Both the position numbers and the translations under genes were made by a program. Positions 9,357-50,051 of a stretch of DNA of 64,000 bases are shown piece after piece. Every line of letters starts with the position of its first letter. The first letter of the stretch is position 1. The notes beneath the pieces are model-generated. The model was not told the DNA's origin. It did not search any database and worked only from the letters and a program-made list of their open reading frames with translations. Origin of the DNA: Acidimicrobiaceae bacterium. GTDB taxonomy: Bacteria > Actinomycetota > Acidimicrobiia > Acidimicrobiales > RAAP-2. The stretch spans positions 1-64,000 of the forward strand of contig PLZW01000023.1 of assembly GCA_003153575.1 (NCBI GenBank), in the 5' to 3' direction.

Positions 9357-9442
9357 CGTACCAGGACGGTCCCGGAGGGGGGACTTCCGTCACAGGGTGA
9401 GATTCAACCTTAAGTTCCCCTTGGTCCAGCCGATCAGAGGGT

Positions 9443-12400
9443 ATGGACCGGGCAGGGGCCACGTTGAGGCCGAATCGCACGGCCAGGAGGGGCATTCTCG
9501 GGATCTCCGTAGTCGTCGTGGGCCTCACCGTGGCCGTGACCGTCGGCGGCCCGGCGCACGCGGTGGGCCCACCACCCCAGATTCCCGGGAGCCCGGCCGC
9601 TCCGACGGCCTCGGAGATCAGCCCGGTGTGCACCACCACGACGCCGGCCGGTGCGCTCGGCCCGGCGACCGACCTCCCGTCCAGCCCGGTCTCGAAGGTG
9701 GCCACCCCGAGCGGCGGCGTCGCCAACTTCACGGCCACCGCCGGCGGCCTGTACGTCGACACGGGAAGGCAGCTGATCACGTACGGCCTGTCCGGCACCC
9801 AGCTCGGCGCCTTCGCACTGCCGGCCCACTTCGCGGGGAACACCGACGAGGTCTATCCGCCCGTGGTCGACCCGTCGGGCAACATCTATCTCTCCTCCTA
9901 CTACGGCACGGCGGTCGCCAAGTTCTCCCCCACCGGCACGTTGCTGTGGTCGGTCGACCCCCAGCAGGGGAATCCCACCGCCCTCTTCTCGACCGGCACG
10001 GGAAGCAACTTCCGGCTCCTGGTCAGCCTGGTGCAGGACAGCGCCTCGAGCCTGGCCCTCGACCCGACGACCGGGGCGGTGATCGGCACCTTCCCGCTGG
10101 TCGTCCACCTCGGTGACTACGTGACCCAGGAGCCCGGCGGCAACCTCCTCCACAGTGGCAACGGCTACGTCGAGACGGTCAGCCCCGCGGGACAGGTGCT
10201 GTCCACCTTCGGCGCGTCCCAGATCGAGGGCAACGGCGTCCACACCGGCTCCGGCACCCAGTTCTACTACCCGGGCCAGGCCGTCCAGGGTCCCGACGGG
10301 ACCATCTACACGGCCGATCCGCTGCACTCGATCGAGGCCACCTCACCGGCCGGCTTCCTGAAGGGCACGACCACCCTCGGCGGCAGCCTCGCCTTCGGCG
10401 GTTGGGGCCTCGCCCTCGTCGGCTCGACCCTCTACTTCCAGAGCGGCCCACCGTTCAACTCCGCCGGCGACGCCATCTCGTCGGTCTCCCTGGCCACCGT
10501 CGGGGCCTACCTGGCAGCCATCCAGACGCCGACCAACAGCCTCGGCTGGGGCGCCGGACTGACGACACCGGCCCAGGGCAACTACTTCGCCCCGGGCACG
10601 ACCCCCTCCGTCGACGCCAGCTTCGACCCGTGGTGGACGGCGGTGGCCCCCGGGCTGGAGCTGTCGTACTCGGTGTGGAACTCCGACACGCTGGCGGCCG
10701 AGACCGTGCCGGCGCCCACCGTCGTGCAGCTGCCCACCGCGTCCGGCGACCTGGCCAACATCCCGTTGACCCTCCCGCCGGCCGACACCGGACCCGGGCC
10801 GTACGAGGTGCGTGCGACGCTCCTCGACACGTCCACCTCGCCGGTATCCACCCTCGGCAGCACCTGCATGCCGTACACGGTCGGGGCCCCCGGTGACGGT
10901 CTGGACCTGGCCACGCTCCCGGCGGGTACGGGCTCCGGCGGACCGGCCGACCCGAGAGGCGTGGCCCTCAACGCCCAACTCGGCCTCGACGGCACGCGGT
11001 CGGGCCAGGTCGTCGACTGGGGATCGCTCCTCCCTTCGTGCAACGCCTCCGCCCCGAGTGCCGCCGCCTGCGGTCCCGCGGCGATGACCTTCGCTTCGGC
11101 GTCCACCGATCCTTATCGGGCGGCCTTCCTGGCCGTCCAGGACCACGTCCACTACTGGATCCAGGTCAGCGGGGGCGACGCCGTGTCGATGGCACTGGTG
11201 CGGTCCGGCTTCTGGCAGGGTGACATAGCGGCCCTGGTCACCCACTACGCGACCGTCCCGGTCGGCTGTGCCGACTGCGCCCCGGTGACCACGTGGGAGC
11301 CATGGAACGAACCCAACAACACCGGGTGGGGCAACGGTGGCACCTATGCCACGTCGGTCCTCAAGCCCTTCTTCGCCGCAGTCAAGTCCGTCGAGCCGGG
11401 CGCAACGTCGACGGTCATCGGCGGCTCCACCCTGGAGCCGGTGACCTGGTGGTGGCAGCAGCTGATCGCCGGCGGCGGGCTGGCGTGGATGGATGCGGCC
11501 GGCGTCCATCCTTACACCGGCTCCAACGACTCCTACGAGGAGGACGGGATGCCGGCCCAGGTCCGCCAGCTCCAGGGGCTGCTGGGCGGGATGCCGTTGT
11601 GGTTCACCGAGATCGGCTGGTGGAGCGACGGCGACTACAACTTCCTGGCGCAGGCCAACAACGTCGCCCGCTCCATCATCTGGCAGAAGGTGTTGGGGGT
11701 GGCCGCCCAGAGCTACTTCTTCGACGAGGGGTCCTGGGGCAACAACGGGATCAGCTTCTCGCTGATCCAGGCCACCAGCACCGACGACTTCGTGAAGCCC
11801 TCGGCCCTGGCCGCCATGACGACGTCCGGCATGCTGGCCAGCCGGCCCGTCCTGGCCTCGCCGTCCACCGGGATCCCCCAGGGCTACCGGGCCGACTTCG
11901 GCACGACAGGTGGCGGTACCACCAAGGTGGCGGCCGTATGGACTGACGGCATCGCCGAGACGGCGTCGGTCACCCTCACCTCGCCCACAGGGAGCTCTGA
12001 TCCGGTGACGGTCACCACGGAGTACGGGTCGACGACGACCGTTCAGGCCGCGTCGGGCACCGCCTACAGCCTGCCGGTGTCGGACCAGGTCAACTTCATC
12101 AGCTACCCCGCCGGAGACACCCTGGCCATCGGCCCCACGGAGGCGTTCGGCACCGACCTGGCCTCCTCGGCGGCCCACGCCGCGGCCACCGCTTCGAGCG
12201 GCAACGCCGCCGCGGCCATCGGCGGCCTCACCGTGGGCTACGGGCAGGGATGGACGTCCGGCAACGGCGACACCACCCCGTCCCTGACGGTCACCCTGGC
12301 GGCACCGTCGACCCTCGACCGGGCGGTGGTCGACACCCAGTCGGTGGGCTCGACGGCCACCGGTATCCGGGACTACACGCTGTCGGCCGACGAGCCGGGA

Positions 12401-13579
12401 TCCGGCTGGGTCACCGTAGCCAGCCAGAACAGCCAGTTCCGCGACCACGAGGCACTCTTCGCCTTCGCCCCGTTGGTGGCCTCCGCACTGAGGGTTTCCG
12501 TTACCGAGGTGAACTTCGGCGGGTACTACGGCGGCGGCGTCCCACCGTGGTGGCCGACCGGCCAGGCCGCACCCGCCTTCATCCACGCCATCCAGGCCTA
12601 CGCCGGCTCGGGCGGACCGGAGGTGGTGGGCGGCGGCTCCCTCCCCCCGTTGCTCGGCGGGAACTCCGGCGGCGGGCCCGGCGGGGGGACGACCACCACG
12701 ACGACAACGCCCACCGTGCCGCCGACCACCACGACGAGCACGGAGCCTCCGCCGACCACAACCACTACGACCCAGCCGACCCACGAAGGCGACAATGGCA
12801 ACGGGGGCAACGGCCAGTCGTGGCGCCACAACGACAAGGGCTACTGGTTGACCACCGCTGGCGGCGGCATCTACAACTTCGGTTCGGCGCCCGCCCTGGG
12901 CCCGACACTGGGGTTCAGCCTCAACAAGCCCATCGTGGACGCGGTGGCGACCCCGGACAAGCAGGGCTATTGGATGGTGGCCTCGGACGGCGGCATCTTC
13001 ACCTTCGGCGACGCCGGGTTCTTCGGTTCGACGGGAGGCATGGACCTCAATGAACCGATCGTGGGCATGGCCCCCACGCCCGACGGCCGGGGGTACTGGC
13101 TGGTGGCCTCCGACGGCGGCATCTTCGCCTTCGGCGACGCCCACTTCTACGGCTCGACCGGTGCGCTCACTCTCAACAAGCCGATCGTCCACATGGCGGC
13201 CACACCGGACGGCGGCGGCTACTGGTTAGCCGCCTCGGACGGAGGGATCTTCGCCTTCGGCGACGCCGCCTTCCACGGCTCGACCGGTGCGCTCACCCTC
13301 AACCAGCCCATCGTGGGCATGGATGCCACCCCCGACGGTCAGGGCTACTGGCTGGCCGCGGCCGACGGCGGCATCTTCGCCTTCGGCGACGCCCGCTACT
13401 ACGGCTCGACCGGCGGCGAGCCCATCAACGCCCCGGTCACCGGGATCGAGTCCAGCGCCACGGGCGCGGGCTACTGGCTGGTCTCACGGGACGGCGGCAT
13501 CTTCGCCTTCGGCGACGCGCCCTACCTCGGTTCCGCCGGCGATCTCCACCTCCAGTCGCCGACGGTGGCGATCTCCTAG
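9443..13579 (+). CDS. Secreted glycosidase-like protein with C-terminal GYW/FGDA repeats
   Basis: A 1378-aa exported protein. The N-terminus has a signal peptide (hydrophobic ISVVVVGLTVAVTV, likely cleavage after AHA near residue 48). Residues about 50-400 resemble a beta-propeller-like region. A TIM-barrel glycosidase region follows with clan GH-A hallmarks: acid/base Glu623 in WNEPN and nucleophile-like Glu723 in WFTEIGW, 100 residues apart. Residues about 950-1055 look like a discoidin (F5/8-type) carbohydrate-binding module. A Thr/Pro-rich linker (about 1075-1120) leads to six 42-aa repeats (1133-1378). In the glycan cluster it may trim, anchor or bind the exported polysaccharide. Catalytic activity is inferred only from the two Glu motifs. 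Confidence 0.82.
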   Translation: MDRAGATLRPNRTARRGILGISVVVVGLTVAVTVGGPAHAVGPPPQIPGSPAAPTASEISPVCTTTTPAGALGPATDLPSSPVSKVATPSGGVANFTATAGGLYVDTGRQLITYGLSGTQLGAFALPAHFAGNTDEVYPPVVDPSGNIYLSSYYGTAVAKFSPTGTLLWSVDPQQGNPTALFSTGTGSNFRLLVSLVQDSASSLALDPTTGAVIGTFPLVVHLGDYVTQEPGGNLLHSGNGYVETVSPAGQVLSTFGASQIEGNGVHTGSGTQFYYPGQAVQGPDGTIYTADPLHSIEATSPAGFLKGTTTLGGSLAFGGWGLALVGSTLYFQSGPPFNSAGDAISSVSLATVGAYLAAIQTPTNSLGWGAGLTTPAQGNYFAPGTTPSVDASFDPWWTAVAPGLELSYSVWNSDTLAAETVPAPTVVQLPTASGDLANIPLTLPPADTGPGPYEVRATLLDTSTSPVSTLGSTCMPYTVGAPGDGLDLATLPAGTGSGGPADPRGVALNAQLGLDGTRSGQVVDWGSLLPSCNASAPSAAACGPAAMTFASASTDPYRAAFLAVQDHVHYWIQVSGGDAVSMALVRSGFWQGDIAALVTHYATVPVGCADCAPVTTWEPWNEPNNTGWGNGGTYATSVLKPFFAAVKSVEPGATSTVIGGSTLEPVTWWWQQLIAGGGLAWMDAAGVHPYTGSNDSYEEDGMPAQVRQLQGLLGGMPLWFTEIGWWSDGDYNFLAQANNVARSIIWQKVLGVAAQSYFFDEGSWGNNGISFSLIQATSTDDFVKPSALAAMTTSGMLASRPVLASPSTGIPQGYRADFGTTGGGTTKVAAVWTDGIAETASVTLTSPTGSSDPVTVTTEYGSTTTVQAASGTAYSLPVSDQVNFISYPAGDTLAIGPTEAFGTDLASSAAHAAATASSGNAAAAIGGLTVGYGQGWTSGNGDTTPSLTVTLAAPSTLDRAVVDTQSVGSTATGIRDYTLSADEPGSGWVTVASQNSQFRDHEALFAFAPLVASALRVSVTEVNFGGYYGGGVPPWWPTGQAAPAFIHAIQAYAGSGGPEVVGGGSLPPLLGGNSGGGPGGGTTTTTTTPTVPPTTTTSTEPPPTTTTTTQPTHEGDNGNGGNGQSWRHNDKGYWLTTAGGGIYNFGSAPALGPTLGFSLNKPIVDAVATPDKQGYWMVASDGGIFTFGDAGFFGSTGGMDLNEPIVGMAPTPDGRGYWLVASDGGIFAFGDAHFYGSTGALTLNKPIVHMAATPDGGGYWLAASDGGIFAFGDAAFHGSTGALTLNQPIVGMDATPDGQGYWLAAADGGIFAFGDARYYGSTGGEPINAPVTGIESSATGAGYWLVSRDGGIFAFGDAPYLGSAGDLHLQSPTVAIS
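12839..13576 (+). repeat. Six in-frame 126-bp repeats coding 42-aa GYW/FGDA units
   Basis: Repeat units begin at 12839, 12965, 13091, 13217, 13343 and 13469, with an exact 126-nt period. Each encodes a variant of GYW(L/M)VASDGGIF(A/T)FGDA followed by a GSTG turn and an N-x-PIVGM strand, which suggests one propeller blade per unit. The first unit is the most divergent (GYWLTTAGGGIYNFGSA). The same motif occurs in the gene at 48350-49324. Confidence 0.92.
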
Positions 13580-16192: not shown

Positions 16193-17101
16193 GTGTCGCT
16201 CTCGACCATCCGAGTGACCGTCGGGCGCGTCTTCCTCGTGGCCGGCGTGCTCGTCCTGCTGTTCATCCCCTACCTGTTGTGGGGCACCGGCCTGATAACG
16301 GCTCGCGCCCAAGCCGAGCTGCGCCAGCAGTTCGCCGCCGCCGAGCGCCTCCACCACGAACGGACGGACCTCCATCCGGCGCCGCCTGCACCCGGTCCGC
16401 TGGTCGTCGCATCCAACGTGGCCCCACCGTCGCCCGGCAGTCCGGTCGGGGTCATCTCGATCCCCAAGATCTCGTTGTCCATGGTCGTGGTGGAAGGTAC
16501 CGATGCCGACCAGCTCCGGTCCGGGCCGGGCCACTACCCGGGCACGCCGCTGCCGGGCGAGGCGGGCAACGCGGCCATCGCCGGCCATCGGACCACCTAC
16601 CTCCACCCCTTCTACAACTTGAACGAGCTGGTGCCCGGCGATCCGATCGACATCGTGACCGTCCAGGGCATCTTCGAGTACCACGTGGTCTCCAGCCAGG
16701 CCGTCGATCCCACTGACGTGGCCGTGGTGGCGCCGACGCCGACCCCGACGCTCACGCTGACCACGTGCACTCCCCGCTACAGCGCCAGCCAGCGCCTCGT
16801 CGTCCAAGCCACGCTGGTGGCCGACGTGCTGACCGGGACGAAGGCGCCGGCCACGCCCGTCACGACAGTCGGGCGGACGCCGAAGGTGCCGGCCGCGCCC
16901 CCGCCGATCCAGAAGAACTGGTGGGCGGCCATCGGGTGGGGCCTGGCCGTGGCCGCCCTGGCCGTCGGCCTGTGGGCCCTGGCTCTGCGCCTCCACCGGG
17001 GTCGGCGACTGGCCGTCGTGGTCGGCGGCACGGTGGTGTGGCTGGGCGCGGTCTACCTGTTCTTCGGCGCGTTGGCCCCGCTCCTGCCCGCCAGTTACTG
17101 A
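16193..17101 (+). CDS. Class E sortase
   Basis: A membrane transpeptidase of 302 aa that cleaves LPXTG-like sorting signals and attaches the protein to the cell wall. It has an N-terminal transmembrane helix (about 12-30), then the sortase barrel with catalytic His in AGHRTTY (about residue 131), catalytic Cys in TLTTCTPRYS (about 191) and Arg in ASQRLVV (about 202). Two more hydrophobic segments at the C-terminus (about 245-265 and 275-295) are typical of class E. GTG 16193 is supported by the leaderless TAGCAT box. The convergent next gene encodes an LPFTG protein, a plausible dedicated substrate. Confidence 0.92.
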   Translation: MSLSTIRVTVGRVFLVAGVLVLLFIPYLLWGTGLITARAQAELRQQFAAAERLHHERTDLHPAPPAPGPLVVASNVAPPSPGSPVGVISIPKISLSMVVVEGTDADQLRSGPGHYPGTPLPGEAGNAAIAGHRTTYLHPFYNLNELVPGDPIDIVTVQGIFEYHVVSSQAVDPTDVAVVAPTPTPTLTLTTCTPRYSASQRLVVQATLVADVLTGTKAPATPVTTVGRTPKVPAAPPPIQKNWWAAIGWGLAVAALAVGLWALALRLHRGRRLAVVVGGTVVWLGAVYLFFGALAPLLPASY

Positions 17102-17169: not shown

Positions 17170-17499
17170 TCAGGAGGCCCGGCGGCGCCGGCGGGTCAGC
17201 ACCCCGCCGATGACCACGGCGCCGATGCCCACCGCGGCGAGTTCACCGATGTCGGCTCCCGTGAAGGGCAGCGTCGACGAGCCGTTGGCGATGGTGGTCG
17301 CAGCGGCCGTCTGCGGCTGCCCGTCGGTGCTCGGCGGCGACGGCGGCAGCACGGTGTTGGGCAAAACGGTAGGCGGCGTACACGCCGTGTAGCAGGTGGT
17401 GCTCGCCGCTCCGACGGCGGTGGGGACGGCGAAGATCGAGGCCAGCGCGATCCCCGTGCCGATGCCCATGCGCTTTGTCCACGTCAAGGTCTTCATCAT
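17170..17499 (-). CDS. Small LPFTG-anchored surface protein, probable sortase substrate
   Basis: A 109-aa exported protein. It has a signal peptide (hydrophobic GIGTGIALASIFAVPTAVGA), a short Thr/Pro-rich mature part with a CYTAC cysteine pair, and a complete cell-wall sorting signal: LPFTG at residues 77-81, a hydrophobic helix and the tail RRRRRAS. Starts ATG 17499 or 17496 are both close to a GGAAGAGAGG ribosome site. A longer frame to 17640 reads through this site and is unlikely. The mature region is so short that the protein may act as a small coat or stalk protein. Convergent with the class E sortase, 68 nt away. Confidence 0.88.
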   Translation of the reverse strand: MMKTLTWTKRMGIGTGIALASIFAVPTAVGAASTTCYTACTPPTVLPNTVLPPSPPSTDGQPQTAAATTIANGSSTLPFTGADIGELAAVGIGAVVIGGVLTRRRRRAS

Positions 17500-17658
17500 G
17501 CCCTCTCTTCCGGGTGCTCCGCATCCCGTGTTCGGACGGACAACCCGTCGCCCCGTGCGTCCATCTTGCACGGTGCCCGGCGCTTTCGCACGTCCCACCC
17601 GATGACTGCAACCGAACAAACGCGCCCCGTGGTAACACAACCACCCACCGTCGGCGGA

Positions 17659-21753: not shown

Positions 21754-24231
21754 TCAGCCGGCCCGGGGTGCCCGGCGGGCACCGGCCAGGCGCTCGGACC
21801 GCTCGATCCCGGCCTCCACGATGCGGTCGAGCACGGCCCAGGGCGGCGCCGAGTCCTTGTCGGCCAGCCACTGCGAGTAGAACACGGTGGCCTCGGTCAG
21901 CCCACACAGCGAGTTGATCTCGAGCAGGTAGACCACGTCGTCCACCCGGTCCCAGAAGGCGTCGAGGCGCGCGTAGCCCTCGATGTCGAAGGCGCGGGCC
22001 AGCTGCTCGACACGCCGGCGCACGCTGTCAGCCACCTCGTCCGCCACGAACAGGTCGAGGGCCAGGTTGGTGCCCACCCCGCTCTGGAACTTCTGCTGGA
22101 GGGTCAGCTCGTCGGCGGTCACCGTCACGCTGGGCACGGCGGCCACCAGGCCGCGGCCCCGACGGTCGAGCACGGCCACCGTCAGTTCGATGAACTGCTT
22201 GGCGGCAAACCACGGTCGGAGCGTCCCGAGATTGAGGTCGCCCGGCGGGAGCTCGATCGTCGCCGGGTCGACGAAGGCGCGCTCGATCAACCACCGCTTG
22301 GGGGCGGGCACGGGCATGGCGACGGTCGGGGCCCGCCCACGTAGGTCGGACCGCGCCTCGTCCGTGGCGAACTCAGGCGCCTCGGCCACGATGGCGGTGA
22401 AGAACCGCTCCATCACTTCGGGTCGCCTGAGCAACTTCACGCCGGTCGAGCACCCGTCTGTCGCCGGCTTGCACACCAGCACCCGGGCCGACAGTTCGTC
22501 GCACAGCGCGCCATAGCGGGCCGCCGCGCCACCAGGGCCGGCCATCCCGTCCAACCAGGTCCCGAGCTCGAAGATGTCGACCTCGCGCTGGGCCGGAGCC
22601 CCCACGCCGGGCAACGCCAGGGCTCGCACCCGGGCCGCGGTGGCCGCCTTGTCACCGGCCAGGTCGGCCGCCCGCGGCCCCGAACCGTTGTAGGGGACGC
22701 CGCGGCGCTCCAGGGCCAACTGCAACCGCCCGTCCTCGCCGGGACCGCCGTGGAGGGCCAGGAACACGAAGTCGGTACCGTCGGCCACCGCGTCGAACGC
22801 CACCGTGGGGCCGACCCGCAGCGCCGCTCCGGCCGCTCCGGCACCCATGGCGAAGTCGGCCCGCACGGTGGCTCCGACCGCCTCGATGGTGGCCCGACGC
22901 ACCGGGTCGCCGACCAGGGACTGGATCTCCTCGACGTCGTGGTGGAGCACGTAGAACAGCCCGATCTCGGTGTACCGGCTCTGCAGGTCCATCAGGAAGA
23001 AGCGGACGTCGCTGCCCGAGGCCAGGAGCGAGAGACCGACGAAGCACCCGCTCTGCCGGCTCACCTGGCGCTCGCTGGTCGGCCCCCCGAGCACCACGTG
23101 GATGCGGCGGGCGCCATCCGACGAGGCCACCGCGTCCTCGGCGGTGACGTCGGAGGTGCCCAGTGCGGCGCGTAGGAGGCCCATGATCAGCCGCCGGTGG
23201 TCGATGCCGACCATCGCCGCCTGCTGGAAGACGAAGCTGGAGAAGCCCATCCCGCCGATGCCGTTCACATCGGTGACCACGACGGTCCCGTCCTCGGTTC
23301 GGAAGCCGTCGATGCGGGCCATGTGCCGGAGGCCGAGCACGCCGAACGCTTCGGCGGCCCGGCGACGGATCCCGTGCAGGACGTCGTGGTCCACCCGCAT
23401 CGGCGTGTGGTGGATCACGCCCGAGCCGTGCAGGTACTTCTCCTCGGTGCCGTAGACCAGGCTGGCCGGCGGCTTCTCGACCTCGGTCGGGGCGAGGGCC
23501 GTCGGCACCCGGCCGGGCCCGTCCAGCACCACCACCGAGAACTCGGTGCCCCTGAGGAACTCCTCGACGAGGACGGCCCCGCCGGTGGCGGCAAAGGCGG
23601 CGTCGACGGCGTCGGCGAGCGCCCGCTCCTCGACCGGCACCACGTCGACCCCGAAGGACGATCCGCCGGCAAGGGGTTTGACGGCCACCAGGGGGTCCGC
23701 CGCGCCGTCCCGCGTCCCGAGGACCGGGGCCAGCGCGGCCAGTGCGGCCAGGACCCCGGCCCGGTCGGCGTCCCACTCCTGGCGGGTCACCGAACGGTGG
23801 GCCGGCACCGGGAACCCGGCGGCAGCCAAGGTCGCGTAGCAGGCCTCCTTGTCGAGCGTGCGCTCGAGAGCGTCGGGCTCGCTGAACACATAGGGGATGC
23901 CCCACGCCTCCAGCCGGCGCTGCAGCGCGCCGTCCTCGCCGAATTCGCCGTGGATCAGGGGCACCGCCACGTCGTGAATCCGGGCCAGTTCGGCCACCTC
24001 GTCCCAGTCGAGCCCGAGGTCGAGCGCGCTCAGCTGCGTCTCGAAGTCGGCACAGGTGTTGGCGTAGTAGTACACCGGCGGCATCCGGTAGGGCCGTAGC
24101 TCCCGGTCGACGAAGACGACGGTCAGCTCCGCCGTGGGGTCGGCCTGGAGGTAGGTGACCCACGGCTTGATGGACCCCGCGCTGACGTCGCGCTCCTCGC
24201 TCGGGCCGCCGAAGAAGAGGAGGACCTTCAC
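21754..24231 (-). CDS. Tandem double D-Ala-D-Ala-ligase-like (ATP-grasp) protein
   Basis: An 825-aa chain containing two complete Ddl-like modules. Module 1 (1 to about 370) has GGPSEERDVS (8-17), HGEFGEDGALQ (94-104), VAVKPLAGGSSFG (182-194), ARIDGF (305-310) and the Mg-site DVNGIGGMG (321-329). Module 2 (about 376-815) has GGPTSERQVS (382-391), HGGPGEDGRLQ (494-504), VCKPATDGCSTG (586-597), ARLDAF and LEINSLCGLT. Both keep the family's catalytic Glu, the ATP-grasp Lys and the metal ligands, so both may be active. They diverge strongly from each other, which argues for different substrates or a regulatory half. GTG 24231 overlaps the MurF stop (GTGA). Which dipeptide or depsipeptide it makes is unknown. 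Confidence 0.85.
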   Translation of the reverse strand: MKVLLFFGGPSEERDVSAGSIKPWVTYLQADPTAELTVVFVDRELRPYRMPPVYYYANTCADFETQLSALDLGLDWDEVAELARIHDVAVPLIHGEFGEDGALQRRLEAWGIPYVFSEPDALERTLDKEACYATLAAAGFPVPAHRSVTRQEWDADRAGVLAALAALAPVLGTRDGAADPLVAVKPLAGGSSFGVDVVPVEERALADAVDAAFAATGGAVLVEEFLRGTEFSVVVLDGPGRVPTALAPTEVEKPPASLVYGTEEKYLHGSGVIHHTPMRVDHDVLHGIRRRAAEAFGVLGLRHMARIDGFRTEDGTVVVTDVNGIGGMGFSSFVFQQAAMVGIDHRRLIMGLLRAALGTSDVTAEDAVASSDGARRIHVVLGGPTSERQVSRQSGCFVGLSLLASGSDVRFFLMDLQSRYTEIGLFYVLHHDVEEIQSLVGDPVRRATIEAVGATVRADFAMGAGAAGAALRVGPTVAFDAVADGTDFVFLALHGGPGEDGRLQLALERRGVPYNGSGPRAADLAGDKAATAARVRALALPGVGAPAQREVDIFELGTWLDGMAGPGGAAARYGALCDELSARVLVCKPATDGCSTGVKLLRRPEVMERFFTAIVAEAPEFATDEARSDLRGRAPTVAMPVPAPKRWLIERAFVDPATIELPPGDLNLGTLRPWFAAKQFIELTVAVLDRRGRGLVAAVPSVTVTADELTLQQKFQSGVGTNLALDLFVADEVADSVRRRVEQLARAFDIEGYARLDAFWDRVDDVVYLLEINSLCGLTEATVFYSQWLADKDSAPPWAVLDRIVEAGIERSERLAGARRAPRAG

Positions 24232-25541
24232 CGGACGCCCACCCCGTCGCGCAGGCGCTGCGCCATCCGGTCCAGGCCGACCGCGCGGCTGGCCTTCAGC
24301 AGGACCACGCTGTCCGGAGCGAGCCCCTCGACCAGCGCCAGCGCCTCGTCCTGCCCGTCGACCGCGGTGCCGCCGTAGGGAGCGCCGTCCACGGCCACCA
24401 CTTCGATGCCGAGCACGCCGGCCAGCTCGCCCATGCGCCGGTGGGCCTCGCCGCTCCCCTCCCCCAGCTCGGCCATCTCACCGAGGACGGCCACCCGTCG
24501 AGGGGCGTCGACCAGGGCCAGGTTGCGCAGGGCCGCCTCCACCGACGCCGGGTTGGCGTTGTAGGAGTCGTTCAGGACCCGCAGTCCCGAAGGCGTCCGC
24601 CAGAACTCGGCCCGCAGCTCGCTCCCCTCGGCCGACGCCACGCCGGCCAGGACCAGTTCGAGGTCCACCCCGGCGCAGACGGCGGCGGCCACGGCGGCGG
24701 CGGCGTTGGTCGCCTGGTGGTCCCCCCGCACCGACAGCACGATCTCGCCGGTCCCCCAGGGCGAGTCGATCCGGACCGTCGGGCGCAGCCCCTCGTCGCG
24801 CCCGGTGACGGAGCCCCTCACGTCGCCCGACGCCGAGCCGAACGTCACCACGTTCGCCTCCGTACGCCTGCGAACGTCGGGGCCGCACTCCACGTCGTTC
24901 AGGATGGCATAGCCGTCCCGCCGGAGCCCCTCGATGAGCGATCCCTTCTCGAGGGCGATCCCCTCGGTACCTCCCAGGTGGGCGGCGTGGGCCGAGCCGA
25001 CCGAGGTGATGACCCCGATCGAGGGCCGGACGAGGTCACGCAAGCGGGCGATGTCCCCCGGGTGCCGGGCGCCCATCTCCACGACCACCGCCTCGACGCC
25101 GTCCGGGGCGCCGAGCAGGGTGAGCGGAACGCCCAGTTCGTTGTTGTAGGAGGCCCGATTGGCGTGGGTGCGCAGGCCGGCAGCCAGCCCGCCGCCCAGC
25201 AGGTCCTTGACGGTGGTCTTGCCCACCGAGCCCGTGATCCCCACCACCAGGTCGCACATGTGCGCCCTGGCGTGCACGCCGAGATCCCACAGGGCGCCCC
25301 CGGTGTCGGCCACCACCACGGCGGAGGCACCTACCGGCGCACGGACCGTGAGGTAGGCGGGCGCCCCGGCGGCCAGGGCCGCGCCCACGAAGTCGTGGCC
25401 GTCGCGCACGGCGACCACGGGGACGAACAGTTGACCACCGACCACCTCTCGCGAGTCTGTCGAGGCGCCGTCCACGGTCACGTCCGGTCCATGCAGCTCC
25501 CCACCGGTGGCGGTCGCTATGTCCCGTGCGGTCAGTCTCAC
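24228..25541 (-). CDS. murF: UDP-MurNAc-tripeptide:D-alanyl-D-alanine ligase
   Basis: A standard-length MurF (437 aa) that adds the D-Ala-D-Ala dipeptide to UDP-MurNAc-tripeptide in the cytoplasm. The N-terminal domain has DSREVVGGQLFVP. The central ATPase has GITGSVGKTTVKD, the canonical ASYNNELGVPLTLLG substrate loop and VVVEMGARHPGDI. The C-terminal domain has VLNDSYNANPAS and VAVLGEMAELGE. GTG 25541 has GAGG 8 nt upstream. First gene of a tightly coupled operon with the double Ddl-like gene and the MurF-like/Alr fusion. All canonical motifs are intact, so this is the likelier housekeeping MurF of the two. Confidence 0.9.
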   Translation of the reverse strand: MRLTARDIATATGGELHGPDVTVDGASTDSREVVGGQLFVPVVAVRDGHDFVGAALAAGAPAYLTVRAPVGASAVVVADTGGALWDLGVHARAHMCDLVVGITGSVGKTTVKDLLGGGLAAGLRTHANRASYNNELGVPLTLLGAPDGVEAVVVEMGARHPGDIARLRDLVRPSIGVITSVGSAHAAHLGGTEGIALEKGSLIEGLRRDGYAILNDVECGPDVRRRTEANVVTFGSASGDVRGSVTGRDEGLRPTVRIDSPWGTGEIVLSVRGDHQATNAAAAVAAAVCAGVDLELVLAGVASAEGSELRAEFWRTPSGLRVLNDSYNANPASVEAALRNLALVDAPRRVAVLGEMAELGEGSGEAHRRMGELAGVLGIEVVAVDGAPYGGTAVDGQDEALALVEGLAPDSVVLLKASRAVGLDRMAQRLRDGVGVR

Positions 25542-25799: not shown

Positions 25800-27143
25800 T
25801 CAGCCCTGGTAGGTGAACCGGTCGACGGCGGATACGGGGCTGGTGCCGGCCGGGGTCGTCACCCGCACGTTCACAGGGCCCGACACTCCGGCGGGGGCCA
25901 CCGCGGTGATCGACGTGGACGAGTTGATGGTGTAGCTGGTGGCGGCCTGGGTACCGAACCTGACTGAGCCCGCCTCCACCAGGCCGCTGCCTGTCAGACG
26001 GACCGAGGTGCCGCCGGCCACCGGGCCGAAGTTCGGGCCCACGTGGGCGACGACCGGGGTGCCGAGGTCGTAGGCCACGGTCACACCGGCCAGGGCCGGG
26101 GTCGCCTGGTAGGTGGCCAGCAGGTCGGCGCCGCTGATGCCGGGGAAGGCGATCCCCCCGGAGTCCGGGCCCGACGTGATCTGAAAGGACAGCAGCGTGG
26201 CGACCGGATCGGTCGAGCCCTTGGTGAACTTGGCCGACGAGGGCGACGCGCCGAGGGCCAGCAGGGCCTGGAGGACCAGTGCCGTCGAGTCCGGGTCGGT
26301 CGAGCCGGGAGCCGCGGCCGAGTTCGGCTCGTAGCCCCACCCGGCGTCGGCGTCCTGGGCCCGGGTGAGGAACTTGAGGGCCGACGCGGCCGCCGGAGGG
26401 CTGAGCGCGTGCTGGGCCTCCAGTCCCTGAACGGCCAGGGCGGTGGAGTTGGTGTCGGGGCCGGCGAAGTTGACCGGCTTGCCCGAGCACGGATTGGAGG
26501 AGGTGATGTAACTGGTCCACCCGCTGAACGGGCACTGCTGGCCCGTCAGCCACGCCACGGCCGAGGTCACCGACGATCCGGAGGACACCCCAGCGGCGGC
26601 CAGGGCGGCCAGGGACAGACCCTGCCGATAGGCCCCGTCGAATATCGGGTCCTGGGACCCGAACAGCCCGGCGTCGACCCCGGTGGTCCGCTCGGTGGCC
26701 AGGAGGCGGGCCACCAGGTCGGACCCACCGAACGAGTTGGGTGACACGCCCATGGCATGGGCGTCCAGGATCAGCACGGCAAGCTGGCCCGGGCCGTCGG
26801 CCGACGAGACGGTCACGTAGGCGTCGACATGGCCCTCGAGGTACACCAGGGCGGCGAGAGCCTTGGTGTGGTGCACCCCGGCGGCGGCCAGGGCGAACAC
26901 TGCGTTGGCCGTGGCGGCGAGGTCGGCCGTGCCCGGCGTGGTGGTCGAGGCGATGTAGCCGGCCGGTGTGATGAGGGCGGCCAGCCAGTGGGCAGCCGCA
27001 TCGGCCGCGGCCGTCTGCGGGAGCGACGGTGGCGAGGTGGCGGCGGAGGCCGGGACCGGCGAGGCGAGGACGCCGAGTCCGAGCGTGAGGGCGAGTGCCC
27101 CGGAGGCGACGAGGCGCCGGATGGTCAAACGGTTGGTGGTCAT
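25800..27143 (-). CDS. Secreted alpha/alpha-barrel (squalene-cyclase/transcobalamin-like) + TIG protein
   Basis: A 447-aa exported protein. The signal peptide is clear (LVASGALALTLGLGVLASPVPASAA). Residues about 40-345 have repeated helical units of the prenyltransferase/squalene-oxidase type, with repeated Asp/Ser/Thr-Ala-Leu-x-x-Q-(A/G)L segments (DTNSTALAVQGLE, DPDSTALVLQALL). The same alpha6/alpha6 fold occurs in transcobalamin and intrinsic factor. Residues about 365-447 form an IPT/TIG domain (HVGPNFGPVAGGTSVRLTG). There is no LPXTG or lipobox. ATG 27143 has a GAGAGGAAG ribosome site. The cobalamin riboswitch directly upstream suggests a role in binding or capturing corrinoids; that role is inference. 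Confidence 0.82.
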   Translation of the reverse strand: MTTNRLTIRRLVASGALALTLGLGVLASPVPASAATSPPSLPQTAAADAAAHWLAALITPAGYIASTTTPGTADLAATANAVFALAAAGVHHTKALAALVYLEGHVDAYVTVSSADGPGQLAVLILDAHAMGVSPNSFGGSDLVARLLATERTTGVDAGLFGSQDPIFDGAYRQGLSLAALAAAGVSSGSSVTSAVAWLTGQQCPFSGWTSYITSSNPCSGKPVNFAGPDTNSTALAVQGLEAQHALSPPAAASALKFLTRAQDADAGWGYEPNSAAAPGSTDPDSTALVLQALLALGASPSSAKFTKGSTDPVATLLSFQITSGPDSGGIAFPGISGADLLATYQATPALAGVTVAYDLGTPVVAHVGPNFGPVAGGTSVRLTGSGLVEAGSVRFGTQAATSYTINSSTSITAVAPAGVSGPVNVRVTTPAGTSPVSAVDRFTYQG

Positions 27144-27154
27144 GTGGACTTCCT

Positions 27155-27173
27155 CTCCGGTGAACACCCGGAG
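27155..27173 (-). promoter_or_regulatory. Hairpin overlapping the ribosome site: probable riboswitch expression platform
   Basis: On the RNA strand CTCCGG pairs with CCGGAG around a 7-nt loop. The right arm runs into the GAGAGGAAG ribosome site before ATG 27143. A second hairpin, GGGACTC/GAGTCCC, lies at 27189-27211. Together they look like a translation on/off switch below the cobalamin aptamer. Confidence 0.55.
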
Positions 27174-27204
27174 GACCAGTGACCGAACGGGACTCTGACC
27201 ATCC

Positions 27205-27377
27205 GAGTCCCCACCGCGTGTCTCGACGGATATGGACTCCCTGACGGTTCCCGGTATCCCGACTTGTGACGAGCGGACGTGCCCATCACCCACGGTTGCG
27301 GACCAGCGCCGGACTTTGACCGGCTTCCCCGAAGAACTGCCATGCGCCGCGCGTGTGCAGCCCACGCAACGTAGCAC
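27205..27377 (-). ncRNA. Cobalamin riboswitch aptamer
   Basis: Reading the minus strand, core elements of the B12 riboswitch appear in order: GCTACGTTGCG near 27361-27377, GGGGAAGCCGG (27320-27330), then AAAGTCCGGCGCTGGTCCGC, CAACCGTG, and finally AGTCGGGATACC (27253-27264). These match the conserved cobalamin family positions (GGGAAxCCGGT, AxTCCGGxGCxG, CCGCAACxGT, AGTCxGGATACC). It lies about 60-70 nt upstream of the secreted alpha/alpha-barrel gene on the same strand. Exact boundaries are estimates. It is probably repressed by adenosyl- or other cobalamins. Confidence 0.88.
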
Positions 27378-27412
27378 CCGTTCGCCGGCCGGGTCGGGGG
27401 TAGCGTCGCGTC

Positions 27413-27499
27413 GTGCTCGCCCGTTGGGGGATCCGCATCGGCATGAGCCTGGCCGGCGTGGCCGCATGTCACAATCCGGGCCCGCCGGTCGTCGACTAG
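27413..27499 (+). CDS. Possible leaderless 28-aa leader peptide of the oxidoreductase
   Basis: GTG 27413 lies 6 nt after a TAGCGT box (27401-27406). The 28 codons (VLARWGIRIGMSLAGVAACH...) end in TAG at 27497-27499, only 2 nt before ATG 27502 of the FAD oxidoreductase. That geometry suggests a translated leader coupled to the next gene. No homologue is recognised. Confidence 0.45.
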   Translation: MLARWGIRIGMSLAGVAACHNPGPPVVD

Positions 27500-27501
27500 G
27501 T

Positions 27502-28753
27502 ATGGACACGCAATTCGACGTCGTGGTCGTCGGGGCCGGACTGACCGGACTGACCGCAGCCGCCACCGCCACCCGGGGTGGCGCCCGCACCCTCGTGCTC
27601 GAGGCCCACCGGGCCGGGGGGGCGGGCCCGTACGACCGAGCGGGAAGGATCCACCCTCAACCTCGGTGCCCACGCCTTGTACCGCGGCGGCCCCGGCGGC
27701 CGGGTGCTCGCCGACCTCGGCATCGTCCCCTCCGGCAGTCCACCGCCGCTGGCCAGGTACCGCGGCTCCCGGGACGGGGAGCTGCACCAGCTGCCCACCG
27801 GACCGGCGTCCCTGCTCCGGACGACGCTGCTCGGCACCCGGAGCAAGGTGCGACTGGCGCGGCTCCTGTCCGGGCTGCCCCGTATGGACCCCGCCGCCCT
27901 CGCCGGCACTTCGGTCCGCGGCTGGCTCGACGGCCTCGACCTGCGGCCCGATGCCGAGTCGGTGGTCCTCGCCCTGCTCCGACTGGGCACGTACTGCCCG
28001 GACGTCGACTCCTTCGGCGCCGACGCCGCCATGACCCAGTTGCAATCGGCGGCGTCCGGGGGTGTCCTCTACCTCCACGGCGGCTGGTCCCAGCTCACCG
28101 ATGCGCTGGGGGCCGCGTCGGAGGTTCGCCCGTCGTCGCCGGTCCGGGCCATCGAGCCCGCCGCCGGCCGCTTCGAGGTCCGCACCGACGACGGGCCGAT
28201 CGTGGCCGGGCAGGTGGTGGTGGCCGCCGGGCTGCCGGCGGCAGCTCGGGCGCTGCTTCCCGAGCCCCCCGAGTGGGCCGACCTCGGTGCTCCGGTCACC
28301 GCCGTCTGCCTCGACCTCGGGGTCCGACGGGTGCCCAGCCCGGGCTACGTCCTCGGCATCGACGCCCCCCTCTACGCCACCACCCAGGGACCACCGGCCC
28401 GGCAGGCGCCGGAGGGACAGGCCGTCGTCGGCGTCCTGCGCTACGGCGCCCGGTCGGCCGAGTTGGACCGTCCGGAGCTCGACGCCCAGCGCCGACTGTG
28501 CGGGGTGGCCGACGACGACGTGGTGTTCGAACGCTTCCTGGCCTCGATGACGGTTGCAGGATCGTTTCCCCGGGCAGAGGCTGGGGGCATGCGGGGACGA
28601 CCCATGACCGCCGACACCGGGACGCCGGGCATCCATCTGGCCGGCGACTGGGTGGGCCCCCACGGACTGCTGGCCGACGGCGCACTGGCCAGCGGGCAGG
28701 ACGCCGGGCGTCGGGCCCTCCGTGCCCTGGAACAGACCGGACGGACGGTGTGA
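27502..28753 (+). pseudogene. FAD-dependent oxidoreductase (amine-oxidase/protoporphyrinogen-oxidase-like), frameshifted
   Basis: The N-terminal FAD site (DVVVVGAGLTGLTAAATA) starts at ATG 27502, but the rest of the flavoenzyme continues in the next frame from about 27620 (GGRARTTEREGSTLNLG...) to the TGA at 28751-28753. The switch falls at a run of seven Gs (27616-27622); six Gs would restore one open frame of about 416 codons. The C-terminal part is intact and ends with the FAD-contact pattern GIHLAGDWVGPHG...LASGQDAGRRA. The defect may be a true mutation, a reversible slippage site or a sequencing error. The stop overlaps the ECF41 sigma gene, so the two form one unit. Substrate unknown. 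Confidence 0.8.
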
Positions 28754-43501: not shown

Positions 43502-44157
43502 GATCCGGCCTCGGCCGCCGGGAACCCGGGTGCGGATCCGCCGAATGCCATCAGCAGTCCGGCAAGCGTGCCGGCTCTCGAGAAGAGTGCCTCGGCCGGG
43601 CCACGGTCGCCATCGAGCTCGGTCAGCATCTCCATGCCCAGATACAGGGCGACCACTGCGTAGGCGACTTCATCGACAGGGAGGACCGAACCCATCGGCG
43701 AACCCTCGAGGGCTCCGGAGATGGCGTCGCGTGCGAACGCCGTCCACGGCGCGATCCGCTTGGCGACCTCTTCCCCGAGGCCGGGGGTCGACGCCGCTCC
43801 GGAGATCATGGCCACCAGCACGGCGACATGGCCGGCCTCGAGGTCCTCTTCGAAGATCGACGTCGCCACGTCGACCAGGCCCATCGGCGACGTGACTCCG
43901 GCGACCGCCTCCCCGTAGCGGACAGCGCGGGCTTCGCTTACGGCATCGAGGGCTGCGAGCAGGAGGCCCACCACCGAATCGAAGTGGTAGAAGATCAGAC
44001 CCTGGTTGACCCCGGCCCGGTCGGCGATGACACGGGCACTCGCCCCGGCGAACCCCTGCTCGATCAAGGTGGCGGTGGCCGCTGTGACCAGGCGTTTCCT
44101 GGTCTCGTCGCCCCGACGCGTCCTCAGGGGGCTGTCGGTACTGGCCTGCACTGGCAT
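43498..44157 (-). CDS. TetR-family transcriptional regulator, probably autoregulated
   Basis: A 219-aa repressor with an intact HTH (TRKRLVTAATATLIEQGFAG, ARVIADRAGVNQGLIFYHF) and a helical ligand domain. ATG 44157 has a textbook AGAGGAGG ribosome site; the frame to 44187 reads through the operator and is rejected. A TTGAGC-N4-GCTCAA palindrome at 44172-44187 overlaps the leader, so it likely represses itself and the coupled DUF2510 gene. Confidence 0.9.
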   Translation of the reverse strand: MPVQASTDSPLRTRRGDETRKRLVTAATATLIEQGFAGASARVIADRAGVNQGLIFYHFDSVVGLLLAALDAVSEARAVRYGEAVAGVTSPMGLVDVATSIFEEDLEAGHVAVLVAMISGAASTPGLGEEVAKRIAPWTAFARDAISGALEGSPMGSVLPVDEVAYAVVALYLGMEMLTELDGDRGPAEALFSRAGTLAGLLMAFGGSAPGFPAAEAGS

Positions 44158-44171
44158 CTGGCCTCCTCTAA

Positions 44172-44187
44172 TTGAGCGACTGCTCAA
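44172..44187 (-). promoter_or_regulatory. TetR operator palindrome TTGAGC-N4-GCTCAA
   Basis: A perfect 6+6 inverted repeat with a 4-nt spacer, 14 nt upstream of the regulator's ATG and right next to its ribosome site. The position fits autorepression. Confidence 0.75.
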
Positions 44188-44326
44188 GTAGCGTACCAGA
44201 ACTGCGGACGCGGACCACGCGTTTCGGGTGATCGAGAGACCCCGGCAGCCGGTGGTCGGTTCGCGAGAAAGCCAACCCCGTGAGGGGCGGCAGAAGGCAA
44301 GTGAGCCACACCCGCTGTCGAGGGAT

Positions 44327-44461
44327 TCAGCCGCGAGGCAGATGTCGATAGGCCTCAGGGGCGACGTAGCGCTTCAAGATGCGGATGACCTGACGCTTGG
44401 TGCGTCCGTCCTTCACTCGGCGCTCGAAGCAGGCCTTCGTCTCTGGGAACCTCGACGGCAC
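44327..44461 (-). pseudogene. C-terminal remnant of an IS110-like transposase
   Basis: A 44-codon minus-strand stretch ending in TGA at 44327. It encodes ETKACFERRVKDGRTKRQ followed by VIRILKRYVAPEAYRHL, which resembles the C-terminal tail of IS110/IS1111 transposases (the EGKxxxEAxRCLKRxxxxxVY pattern). The rest of the transposase and any terminal repeats are missing, so this is a fossil. It marks the left border of the lower-GC accessory region. Confidence 0.55.
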
Positions 44462-44464
44462 TTC

Positions 44465-44911
44465 CTACGCCACGGTTGTATTCAGAGCTCCCGTGATCTC
44501 GCTGATGGCCGCTTGCTCGGAGTCACTCACGTCTTGATCGTGCTCACGATGAGCAGCTGCGACTTTGTGGGACAGCGTGATGACGAACTGGCGATATTCT
44601 TCGACCTCTTCCGGCGTGGCCTTACGCTCAAGCATGGCAACCGCATCATGCAAGTGTTGGAGTCCATGCTGCTTGAGTTCCTCAGGAGAGTGATAGTGCG
44701 TGTGGTCGCGCTCCGGTTTAGCCGCGACGATCTCATCCAGAAGTTCACTCTCCCCGTGCTGTTGCCGTGCCTCCACATAGGCCTTGGCCATGGCGATGGT
44801 CTCGCGAAACGACCCTCCCCGTTGGGCAGTGACCACGATCATTCCAGCGCTTGGTGGCGCTTCTAGGATCACCTGCCATTCTTCAGTCGTGAAGTCGGAC
44901 TTCGAGGTCAT
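44465..44911 (-). CDS. Conserved hypothetical helical protein
   Basis: A 148-aa soluble protein. Visible features are FTTEEWQVILEAPPSAGM, a Gly-rich turn (AQRGGSFRETIAMAKAY), a short His-rich stretch (RDHTHYHSPEE) and an acidic helical C-terminus (TPEEVEEYRQFVITLSHKVA). The pattern resembles small uncharacterised actinobacterial proteins; no function is known to me. ATG 44911 is chosen; the frame to 45115 adds a Cys/Arg-rich stretch unlike coding sequence. It ends 4 nt before the transposase remnant on the same strand. Confidence 0.7.
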   Translation of the reverse strand: MTSKSDFTTEEWQVILEAPPSAGMIVVTAQRGGSFRETIAMAKAYVEARQQHGESELLDEIVAAKPERDHTHYHSPEELKQHGLQHLHDAVAMLERKATPEEVEEYRQFVITLSHKVAAAHREHDQDVSDSEQAAISEITGALNTTVA

Positions 44912-45059
44912 CACCAAGCTCCCATTCTCTACGATTTGCCAACCCCTTCGTTGCACACACCGTAGCGATCGGCAGTGCACGGGCGTGCATCGACCGTAGC
45001 CAACAATCCGGTGCGGATTCAGGGGATCAACGAAACACCGCTGGTGCAAGACTGGGCCG

Positions 45060-45478
45060 GTGACTTGGAGCCAAGCATCACCTGACTTCGAGCCTGATGG
45101 TGGACTCCGTGACATCTACGTCAGAAACGTCGGTCCAGCGGGCGGGAGACCGTCTACCACTGGCTGCTCGACACTTTCCCGCATGTGTTCTTGCGGGATG
45201 GCGTCGAAGTCGAGCCGCCTCCTTCAGTCCAGTTCATCTAGGAAGACCGGAAAATCGCTTCAAGCCTCCTGAGACTCCGAGTCGGCGACCTCCGTGTGAA
45301 CTGCCACTTCTTTCAGTCGGACGACTTGGAACTTGACATTCGGCCCGAAGAGATCAACGAGGAACAATTCCGAGGGGTCCGCCATTTGATGCTGAGCCTC
45401 GGTCGGCTGGCTGGCAGGCAGGTCATTCTGACTTATGAAAACGCCAAAGGACTCCGCCTTCTTGGAATACCGACCTGA
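45060..45478 (+). pseudogene. Gene decayed by a frameshift and an amber stop
   Basis: Three coding pieces line up. Starting at GTG 45060, frame 1 gives FEPDGGLRDIYVRNVGPAG. After about 45140 the sense continues one frame over (RETVYHWLLDTFPHVFLRDG then VEVEPPPSVQFI) to an in-frame TAG at 45239-45241. Past the TAG the same frame goes on (EDRKIASSLLRLRVGDLRV ... QVILTYENAKGLRLLGIPT) to the TGA at 45478. The intact ancestor would be about 138 aa, of unknown family. One indel plus one nonsense mutation show decay rather than a sequencing slip. Confidence 0.65.
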
Positions 45479-45779
45479 CGACGATGCACTGAGGTATCGA
45501 CGGCCGTCATGGCGGTAAGGGGGCAGGCCCGATGGCCGGTCGGTGGCACTCGATCTCCGCCCTGCTCCCGGTGATACGGGCAGGCTTTGGCCTCAAGAGT
45601 CGCCGACTGGATTACCCGAAGTCGCAGGTCAGTCCCTCAAGATGGCCTGGACAGGCCCCCACCGCCCACCACCGATCCCGTCTCGGCGAGCGCTACCGAC
45701 ACGTCGGTGCCGGGCATTTCTCCGGTTTTGCCGTACTGGGAGGCAACCTTTCGAACAGGCAGGGGGGTTGAACTAGGTA
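45479..45779. other. Gap of 301 nt with no supported gene
   Basis: Short plus-strand frames between 45532 and 45776 overlap in three frames and have no ribosome site or recognisable product. The last about 60 nt should hold the promoter of the sigma factor gene at 45780. No ECF-type -35/-10 pair could be confirmed. Confidence 0.5.
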
Positions 45780-46469
45780 ATGGACGGACGTCGGCATCAG
45801 ATCCAGCCCCCGATTGACTTCGACCGCTTCGTCGCCGAGACGGCTGAGACCCTGCTGCGGTCGGCCTACCTGATCACCTGGGACTTCGCAGAGGCGGAGG
45901 ACCTGGTTCAGGAGTGTCTGTTCAAGGTCGCCCGCCGGTGGCCCCGGGTCAAGAAGATGGAGCGGCCCACTGCGTACGCGCGCACGGTGCTCGTCCACCT
46001 TGCGTTGGACGGAGGGAAGCGGCGGAGCCAGCTGCGCTCAGAGCTCGGACCTGCAGCGACCGGGCTCCTCGAGGCGCACCACGACGATGCATCCGTGCGC
46101 ATCCTTGGACGCGTCGAGACGAGTACCGACCTGCTGGGGGTGCTCAGAGAGCTGCCACCGCGGCAACGCGCCGCTCTGGTGCTGCGGTATTTCGACGATC
46201 TGAGCGAAGCGGAGGTCGCCGACGTCATGGGTTGTTCGGTGGGGACGGTGAAGAGCACCACGTCGCGAGCCCTCGGGCGCCTTCGTCGGGAAGTCGAAGG
46301 TACGGGGGTGGCATCCGACATGACGACGGACGGCACACAAGCAAACGGTGCTAACGGTTCGTCGCGGCCAACCGACCTCCGAACGGCCGCGCTCTCACAT
46401 GCCCGGCCAGACGTGGACGCAATCGCACAAGACACGACACAAACAATCGAAGGGAGCACCACACTATGA
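45780..46469 (+). CDS. ECF sigma factor (SigE-like, actinobacterial)
   Basis: A 229-aa sigma-70 family factor. Sigma2 is FVAETAETLLRSAYLITWD with AEDLVQECLFKVARRW; sigma4 is LPPRQRAALVLRYFDDLSE with ADVMGCSVGTVKSTTSRAL. The C-terminal about 50 residues are polar and unstructured. The start ATG 45780 overlaps no gene. Its stop overlaps the ATG of the following membrane protein (ATGA), so the two form a sigma/anti-sigma-like unit. Confidence 0.9.
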   Translation: MDGRRHQIQPPIDFDRFVAETAETLLRSAYLITWDFAEAEDLVQECLFKVARRWPRVKKMERPTAYARTVLVHLALDGGKRRSQLRSELGPAATGLLEAHHDDASVRILGRVETSTDLLGVLRELPPRQRAALVLRYFDDLSEAEVADVMGCSVGTVKSTTSRALGRLRREVEGTGVASDMTTDGTQANGANGSSRPTDLRTAALSHARPDVDAIAQDTTQTIEGSTTL

Positions 46470-47467: not shown

Positions 47468-47580
47468 GCCCGCCAGCCTGCGAATCCGCCGTCGCGAGAC
47501 CAATATCAAACCAGAATTGCGGAGGCACCACCCAGCGGGTGAGCCAACATCCCTCGACCGGGCACTCACATAGAACCGCT

Positions 47581-47612
47581 GGTAGGTGGCACCTCGACCG
47601 AAAGATGCTTGC
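47581..47612 (+). repeat. Imperfect direct repeat copy 1 (pairs with 48184-48214)
   Basis: GGTAGGTGGCACCT followed by a block containing AAAGATGCT. It matches the site at 48184-48214 over about 30 nt with few differences. Both copies carry an AGGTG-N-CACCT inverted repeat. They bracket the SnoaL-like gene. Confidence 0.5.
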
Positions 47613-47691
47613 ACGTTGTGGGGCACCTTCAGCAACCCTGATCATCGAAAAGGGCAACTCAAGAACTCTTCGAGTTGGCTTTAGGCTTCGC

Positions 47692-48165: not shown

Positions 48166-48183
48166 GTCCGCCGCAACCCTTCT

Positions 48184-50044: not shown

Positions 50045-50051
50045 AGGAAAC

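Follow-up and report, generated by a model that had tools for sequence, protein, structure and literature searches.

A predicted tandem D-alanine-D-alanine ligase with one canonical and one diverged module in uncultured Acidimicrobiales

D-alanine-D-alanine ligase (Ddl) is known as a one-module enzyme, works as a dimer, and is an antibiotic target (D-cycloserine). In the window, the whole 64,000 nt stretch of an Acidimicrobiaceae contig (PLZW01000023.1) analyzed here, an earlier note had read two Ddl-like modules in one protein, which raises the question of what a second module might do in this enzyme. The open reading frame runs uninterrupted through 825 codons (Table 1), and the opposite (+) strand of 21754-24231 contains stops in the same frame. 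The Pfam domains Dala_Dala_lig_N and Dala_Dala_lig_C each match two stretches of the protein, so that two Ddl modules are indeed joined in one frame. The whole protein scored 240.4 bits with the NCBIfam model TIGR01205, slightly below the cut-off of 245.65, and the modules taken apart scored 147.7 bits (module 1) and 92.9 bits (module 2). As the note had also read, each module carries its own set of motifs: GGPSEERDVS, GEDGALQ, K185 and D321-V-N323 in module 1, and GGPTSERQVS, GEDGRLQ, K588 and E771-I-N773 in module 2. Module 2 spans about 450 aa as compared with 306 aa of DdlB. AlphaFold modeled the whole chain with a pLDDT of 82.4 and a pTM of 0.84 (39-row alignment) and module 2 alone with a pLDDT of 83.3 and a pTM of 0.85 (42-row alignment). 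The best 50 PDB fold matches listed for each of the two models are all Ddl or D-Ala-D-X ligases.

Table 1. Position of the tandem ddl gene, its parts and the adjoining murF genes in the window.
Feature	Position	Strand	Support
MurF1, 437 aa, canonical motifs	24228..25541	-	TIGR01143 318.7 bits, cut-off 288.6
Tandem Ddl-Ddl protein, 825 aa	21754..24231	-	start GTG 24231, stop TGA 21754-21756
Module 1, residues 1-360 (Ser191/Tyr266 = DdlB Ser150/Tyr216)	23152..24231	-	
Linker, residues 361-374, approximate limits	23110..23151	-	
Module 2, residues 375-825, diverged, longer Ddl	21757..23109	-	AlphaFold model, PDB matches
Cys594 codon (module 2), equivalent to DdlB Ser150	22450..22452	-	
Phe715 codon (module 2), equivalent to DdlB Tyr216	22087..22089	-	
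MurF2-alanine racemase fusion, 847 aa	19195..21738	-	TIGR01143 342.6 bits; TIGR00492 327.6 bits

A fusion of two adjacent ddl genes by assembly or gene calling might be suspected, as the five carriers with named records are metagenome bins (Acidimicrobiaceae or Acidimicrobiales) and fragmentary contigs suggest the same of the others. This explanation is refuted, its probability being practically nil, by the same continuous frame recurring in eight bins, six from the genus and two from another family of the order, hereafter the second family. The linker is read through in frame in all six carriers within the genus and in both full-length homologues from the second family, and no frame break was seen in these eight genomes between residues 360 and 385, where the earlier note had allowed for one. 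The five homologues in the genus are 68-83% identical to the window protein. The dN/dS ratio is 0.16-0.24 in each module (five of the 15 possible pairs), the modules being alike, and both are under similar purifying selection.

To compare the active sites, we aligned ten rows of each module with 50 single Ddls and numbered the residues by the E. coli ddlB row (L185). All 50 single Ddls and 10/10 rows of module 1 have Ser at position 150, whereas 10/10 rows of module 2 have Cys there. Position 216 is Tyr in 49 of the 50 single Ddls (the other has a gap) and throughout the ten rows of module 1, and Phe in 10/10 rows of module 2. Likewise, Ser281 is found in 50/50 single Ddls and in 9/9 rows of module 1 (the tenth is cut off), as against Thr in all ten rows of module 2, and position 282, which is Leu, Met or Thr in the single Ddls, is Phe in module 1 (9/9) and Val in module 2 (10/10). 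A wider table with all 53 single Ddls gave Ser150 in 53/53 and Tyr216 in 52/53 (one gap). Of the reference rows in the same alignment, VanB has Ser150 without Tyr216 and a VanG-like row has both Ser and Tyr. Module 1 keeps what would be the D-Ala-D-Ala signature, Ser150 and Tyr216 of DdlB, while module 2 has a fixed and distinct residue set around its predicted second-substrate pocket. According to an excerpt of PMC7691350, Ddls restricted to D-Ala-D-Ala have conserved Ser150 and Tyr216, and E. coli DdlB with the residues of LmDdl2 (Ala150, Phe216) gains weak D-Ala-D-Lac activity.

The catalytic residues are largely shared. Module 2 retains Lys97, Lys144, Lys215, Arg255, Asp257, Glu270 and Asn272, and in both modules Lys144, Lys215, Arg255, Asp257, Asn272 and an acid at 270 are retained wherever the position is present. 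Loss of ATP or metal ligands from one module, which the earlier note had considered as a counterargument, was not seen in the window protein, with position 180 of module 2 aligning ambiguously in the genus (E in one alignment, R in another). Neither tandem site is of the textbook kind, because module 1 has Phe282, Asp at 270 (9/9) and, in all four rows of the second family, Gln in place of Glu180, and module 2 has Ala in place of Gly276 in 3/10 rows. Among the 50 single Ddls, 11 have Lys at 272 together with Asp at 270, and therefore some of them may not be true Ddls.

The tandem gene lies between two murF genes. The stop codon of MurF1 overlaps the start of the tandem (GTGA), and MurF2-Alr starts 15 bases past its stop; MurF1, Ddl-Ddl and MurF2-Alr form a compact D-alanine operon. 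There is no VanH-like gene in the window operon. When aligned with E. coli MurF, MurF1 keeps the P-loop, NNE, His, Lys and D-YNANP motifs in five of the six rows, that of G006 being cut. MurF2 keeps the P-loop, His, Lys and D-YNA-P in 6/6 rows, with SGR replacing NNE and Ala or Ser replacing the conserved Asn (NAxAA). The ordinary MurFs of the genus (five of eight aligned) keep the motifs with NNR in place of NNE. The racemase half of MurF2-Alr passes TIGR00492, and the whole fusion matches NF008897, the bifunctional MurF-Alr model, end to end (residues 26-846), yet its 428.1 bits do not reach the cut-off of 804. This known MurF-Alr fusion, which we take to be of Bacteroidota origin, and the MurC-Ddl fusion (NF011171) are precedents for fusing enzymes of the D-Ala branch. 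Among the matches listed from 296 genomes of the phylum, MurF2-Alr was matched across both halves in an open frame in the window genome only; two listed matches that start at residues 370-371 run through stop codons. The window genome also encodes MurC, MurE, FtsW and FtsZ, which share a contig, and MurD, which is on a different one.

To examine how common this arrangement is, we searched the 14 genomes of the genus with PF01820. Six of them (G000, G002, G005, G006, G010 and G012) gave exactly two matches, which are the two modules, and the remaining eight gave one ordinary Ddl each. By this search, the tandem is the only predicted Ddl found in the window genome and its five congeners. The window genome (2.98 Mb) is 76% complete; the carriers G002, G006 and G012, which are 93-95% complete, likewise have the tandem without a further Ddl. 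A PF07478 match on contig C15 of the window genome was discarded as a further Ddl, as its sequence is that of a biotin-carboxylase-type protein, and the matches on C11 and C20 are below the cut-off. Two MurFs flank the tandem in 6/6 carriers, both above the TIGR01143 cut-off in five of them; the first MurF of G006 is truncated by the contig end and scored 209 bits, below the cut-off. The fused Alr is the only Alr found in all six tandem carriers. In each of the eight single-Ddl genomes, a MurF below the cut-off (174-201 bits) adjoins the Ddl and Alr is located on another contig. Three of the five other carriers were compared (G012, G002 and G005) and have flanking genes in common with the window, including the sortase. 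Five of the eight single-Ddl loci were compared (G003, G007, G011, G001 and G008) and have a different neighborhood; the one exception is a flanking gene of G001 with 62% identity to the window gene at 9401-13576, some kilobases beyond the operon.

A whole-protein search of 61 genomes (own, genus, family and order) gave full-length matches solely in the six carriers of the genus, and the frames of 53 other Ddl rows, some of which are truncated by contig ends, showed no second module. In 396 genomes of the phylum (E <= 1e-20), only partial matches were found outside the window genome among the rows listed, and the module 2 profile matched nothing beyond the window genome in 296 genomes (E <= 1e-14), both sets being samples of a larger group. 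Other phyla were scanned by two N-terminal peptide patterns, together with viral and plasmid scans; as the pattern scan did not list the second family, it is a weak test of absence. No tandem Ddl was found on viral contigs or among the matches listed from plasmids. Two candidates were set aside: the plasmid match H31, whose 89% coverage came from a single Ddl of about 960 bases matched to both halves, and the Neomarinimicrobiota loci L105-L107, which are ordinary single Ddls. In some uncultured soil and wetland bacteria, the one-module Ddl seems to have been replaced by a two-module protein.

The module 2 profile matched four of 397 genomes of the order at E <= 1e-12 (the window genome, G769, G785 and G546), of which G546 was rejected as a tandem carrier because its match is an ordinary Ddl. 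With a G769 row added to the profile, 8 of 32 genomes of the second family were matched at E <= 1e-10. Five of these matches were strong: G769 (615 bits, its own row being part of the profile), G802 (481 bits), G803 (462 bits), G795 (349 bits) and G785 (113 bits, with a gene cut by the contig end). The other three, G617, G796 and G051, reached no more than 41-47 bits. G802 and G795 encode the full tandem in a single frame (832 aa and 849 aa, respectively). In G803, a contig starts with the last part of module 1, followed by module 2, and in G769 and G785 the two modules lie at the ends of different contigs. The apparent second ordinary Ddls in G769 and G785 were rejected as such, as they are module 1 parts of tandem genes truncated by contig ends.

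A MurF-Alr fusion is found near the tandem in four of the five carriers of the second family. In G802 and G785 it lies directly upstream. In G769 the distance is about 7 kb, also upstream, and the contig includes no more than the Alr end of the fusion. In G795 the fusion and the tandem are arranged tail to tail; the G803 contig begins within the tandem. The MurF half of this fusion has lost the His, the carbamylated Lys and D-YN in G802 (by alignment) and G785 (by reading), and the partial row of the G795 MurF half is without D-YN. The NF008897 scores are 513 bits in G802 and 511 bits in G785, against the cut-off of 804. G795 has an intact MurF as a separate gene after the tandem and in the same orientation (TIGR01143 355.5 bits, cut-off 288.6), an arrangement that recalls the window operon. 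In the fusions at L180:6795-9287, L184:5400-7898 and L182:2-1813, a dead MurF may have been retained as the partner of the racemase.

In G802, G803, G769 and G785, though not in G795, the tandem is followed by MurL and MurD, with MurL at 318-328 bits against a cut-off of 700 (G803 and G802) and MurD above its own cut-off (G802 and G769). Such pairs of a MurL-like epimerase and MurD were noted beside the second-family tandem at L180, L181, L166 and L167. In the window genome too, MurD adjoins a MurL-like epimerase gene (L139:997-3497, contig C10; NF041275 344.6 bits, below the cut-off of 700). The pairs point to a putative alternative D-Glu route (MurD2/MurL) in the order, which does not appear among the genera listed for this route in an excerpt of PMC8788868.

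We then asked whether the tandems of the two families have a common origin. In a first tree of 62 rows, from which three incomplete single Ddls had been dropped, modules 1 and 2 formed separate clades of six on long stems, in agreement with the earlier note that they are very different from each other. The ordinary Ddls of the genus clustered with those of the family in a clade of their own, and a descent of the tandem from the ordinary Ddl of the genus was thus rejected. In a second tree of 69 rows (one more partial row dropped), module 1 of both families formed one clade with a support of 100/99, and so did module 2 (100/99). As each module is one clade across both families, the tandem is a single old arrangement, either inherited or transferred whole. 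Modules 1 and 2 did not join in the first tree, but an AU test did not reject one clade for them (p 0.268), and long branches meet in the second tree; the modules may have arisen by duplication of one another or as two old paralogues that were joined.

The tandem resembles the bacterial Ddls (DdlA/DdlB; PF01820 and PF07478, TIGR01205) in domains, fold and most ATP and metal ligands, but differs from them in having a second module, which is without Ser150 and Tyr216. A comparison with Van-type ligases, which the earlier note had suggested, found no Van model near its cut-off among the best 25 of 35 NCBIfam families; the best among the families listed were VanG (139.5 bits, cut-off 495) and VanD (115.8 bits, cut-off 700). 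The VanX-type dipeptidase domain PF01427 was found in 0/14 genomes of the genus, and an excerpt of a published survey gives van genes in 0/216 Acidimicrobiales assemblies (PMC8698665). Some van clusters contain an extra MurF (vanI with murF_I; murF2 beside vanHAX), and excerpts of PMC4790382 and PMC4229326 describe extra MurF genes accompanying D-Ala-D-X ligases. The window operon is like them in a second MurF adjoining a putative ligase of this kind, but no VanX was found in the tandem genomes of the genus. Compared with the D-Ala-D-Lac ligase LmDdl2, whose residues are taken from the same excerpt of PMC7691350, module 2 is alike in Phe216 and in a residue other than Ser at 150, and LmDdl2 (1ehi) ranked third by fold among the best 50 matches listed for module 2, with close neighboring scores. 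However, position 150 is Cys instead of Ala, no VanX was found, and sequence similarity is low, 1ehi scoring only 40.9 bits with the module 2 profile. As far as these models tell, none of the Van or Lac ligases is a near relative of module 2 by sequence.

What, then, might the two modules do? Our tentative preference, held with a little less than even confidence, is a housekeeping D-Ala-D-Ala ligase in a two-active-site form, with one canonical site and one site of altered specificity. Alr would produce D-Ala, module 1 would ligate two D-Ala, and MurF1 would attach the dipeptide to UDP-MurNAc-tripeptide. Module 2 would also be an ATP-using ligase but would select its second substrate (a D-amino or D-hydroxy acid) differently or less strictly, and its putative product may be loaded by MurF1 or the diverged MurF2. 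The fusion and the tight operon would keep the D-Ala branch together at a fixed ratio. We infer the altered second substrate mainly from the changed positions 150 and 216 and from the DdlB mutant data (excerpt of PMC7691350); against it stand Cys150 of module 2 where LmDdl2 has Ala150, the low similarity of module 2 to Van and Lac ligases, and the searches that found neither VanX in the 14 genomes of the genus nor a VanH-like gene in the operon. As for the sole Ddl, another could be missing from a genome that is 76% complete. Of the two possibilities raised by the earlier note, two different ligations became likelier by the residues fixed at positions 150, 216, 281 and 282 of module 2 (10/10 rows), while the second product is a prediction. 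The diverged MurF2 fits two ligations weakly, because the matching MurF half in the second family looks dead, and with the dead halves of G802 and G785 and the separate intact MurF of G795, a second MurF for a second product is not a general rule. The note had not foreseen that the tandem is the sole Ddl found, that it lies in a MurF/Ddl-Ddl/MurF-Alr operon, or that a second family shares it.

Alternatively, both modules may make D-Ala-D-Ala as a fused hetero-dimer that raises or regulates capacity, the changes in module 2 being drift or kinetic tuning. This is a real but lesser possibility: the main ATP and metal residues and Arg255 are present in both modules, growth would need only one intact site, no Ddl besides the tandem was found in the six genomes, and DdlB Y216F, judged by the title of PDB 1iow, is an enzyme with a solved complex. 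Drift is harder to reconcile with four positions of the second-substrate site fixed differently in 10/10 rows of module 2 from two families, at three of which the single Ddls are invariant apart from one gap. That catalysis is confined to one half, with a structural or regulatory role for the other, the second possibility of the earlier note, is rather unlikely. The halves are strongly diverged, module 1 of the second family has Gln for Glu180 (4/4), and inactive fused partners do occur in these clusters, as the dead-looking MurF half near the second-family tandem indicates; nevertheless, both halves retain the remaining ATP and metal ligands, keep most catalytic residues and have similar dN/dS. 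More improbable still is another chemistry for module 2, such as dipeptide extension or a non-alanine pair, giving a different stem or a soluble product. The long stem branch, the length of module 2 and the MurL and MurD neighbors in the second family would suit it, but every one of the 50 PDB matches listed for the module 2 model is a Ddl-type ligase, and the sole-Ddl context speaks against it.

Besides these bacteria, a fusion of two putative Ddl enzymes is described throughout the plant lineage (Arabidopsis At-DDL and Physcomitrella DDL) in an excerpt of PMC9954125, in which Arabidopsis DDL activity is yet to be shown. The window protein is like plant DDL in having two Ddl modules per chain, but it is bacterial, and the likeness was drawn from the published description, so that kinship is a lead only. 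In a limited literature search, tandem Ddls were described for plants only, and a bacterial one may be published elsewhere. An excerpt of PMC9434261 reports the pathway with DDL as active in moss, places P. patens Ddl nearest to the Fibrobacteres-Chlorobi-Bacteroidetes (FCB) group and conjectures that plants received a peptidoglycan gene cluster by transfer at an early stage. A bolder and, in our view, unlikely reading is that the tandem is a counterpart or near source of the plant plastid DDL, passed on within a MurF-Alr/Ddl-Ddl/MurL/MurD cluster, with module 2 as a conserved D-Ala-D-X ligase. If so, two kinds of wall precursor would exist in these bacteria and perhaps also in plastids. A lineage with the tandem as its only detected Ddl offers a simple system for asking why tandems arise, a bacterial comparator for the plant tandem DDL, and a candidate for walls with two precursor ends.

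Elsewhere in the window, a sortase gene at 16193-17101 (+) lies near a small ORF at 17170-17640 (-), which ends in LPFTG followed by a hydrophobic stretch and arginines; the two are likely a dedicated sortase-substrate pair. The G+C content at 44001-58000 is 0.61-0.66, as compared with about 0.67-0.75 in the first 44 kb, and this part is possibly acquired DNA. An ORF at 25800-27590 (-) contains a TIG domain, together with a SQHop_cyclase_C match that is weak and does not reach the cut-off; two other carriers have this TIG-domain ORF conserved at the upstream side of the operon.
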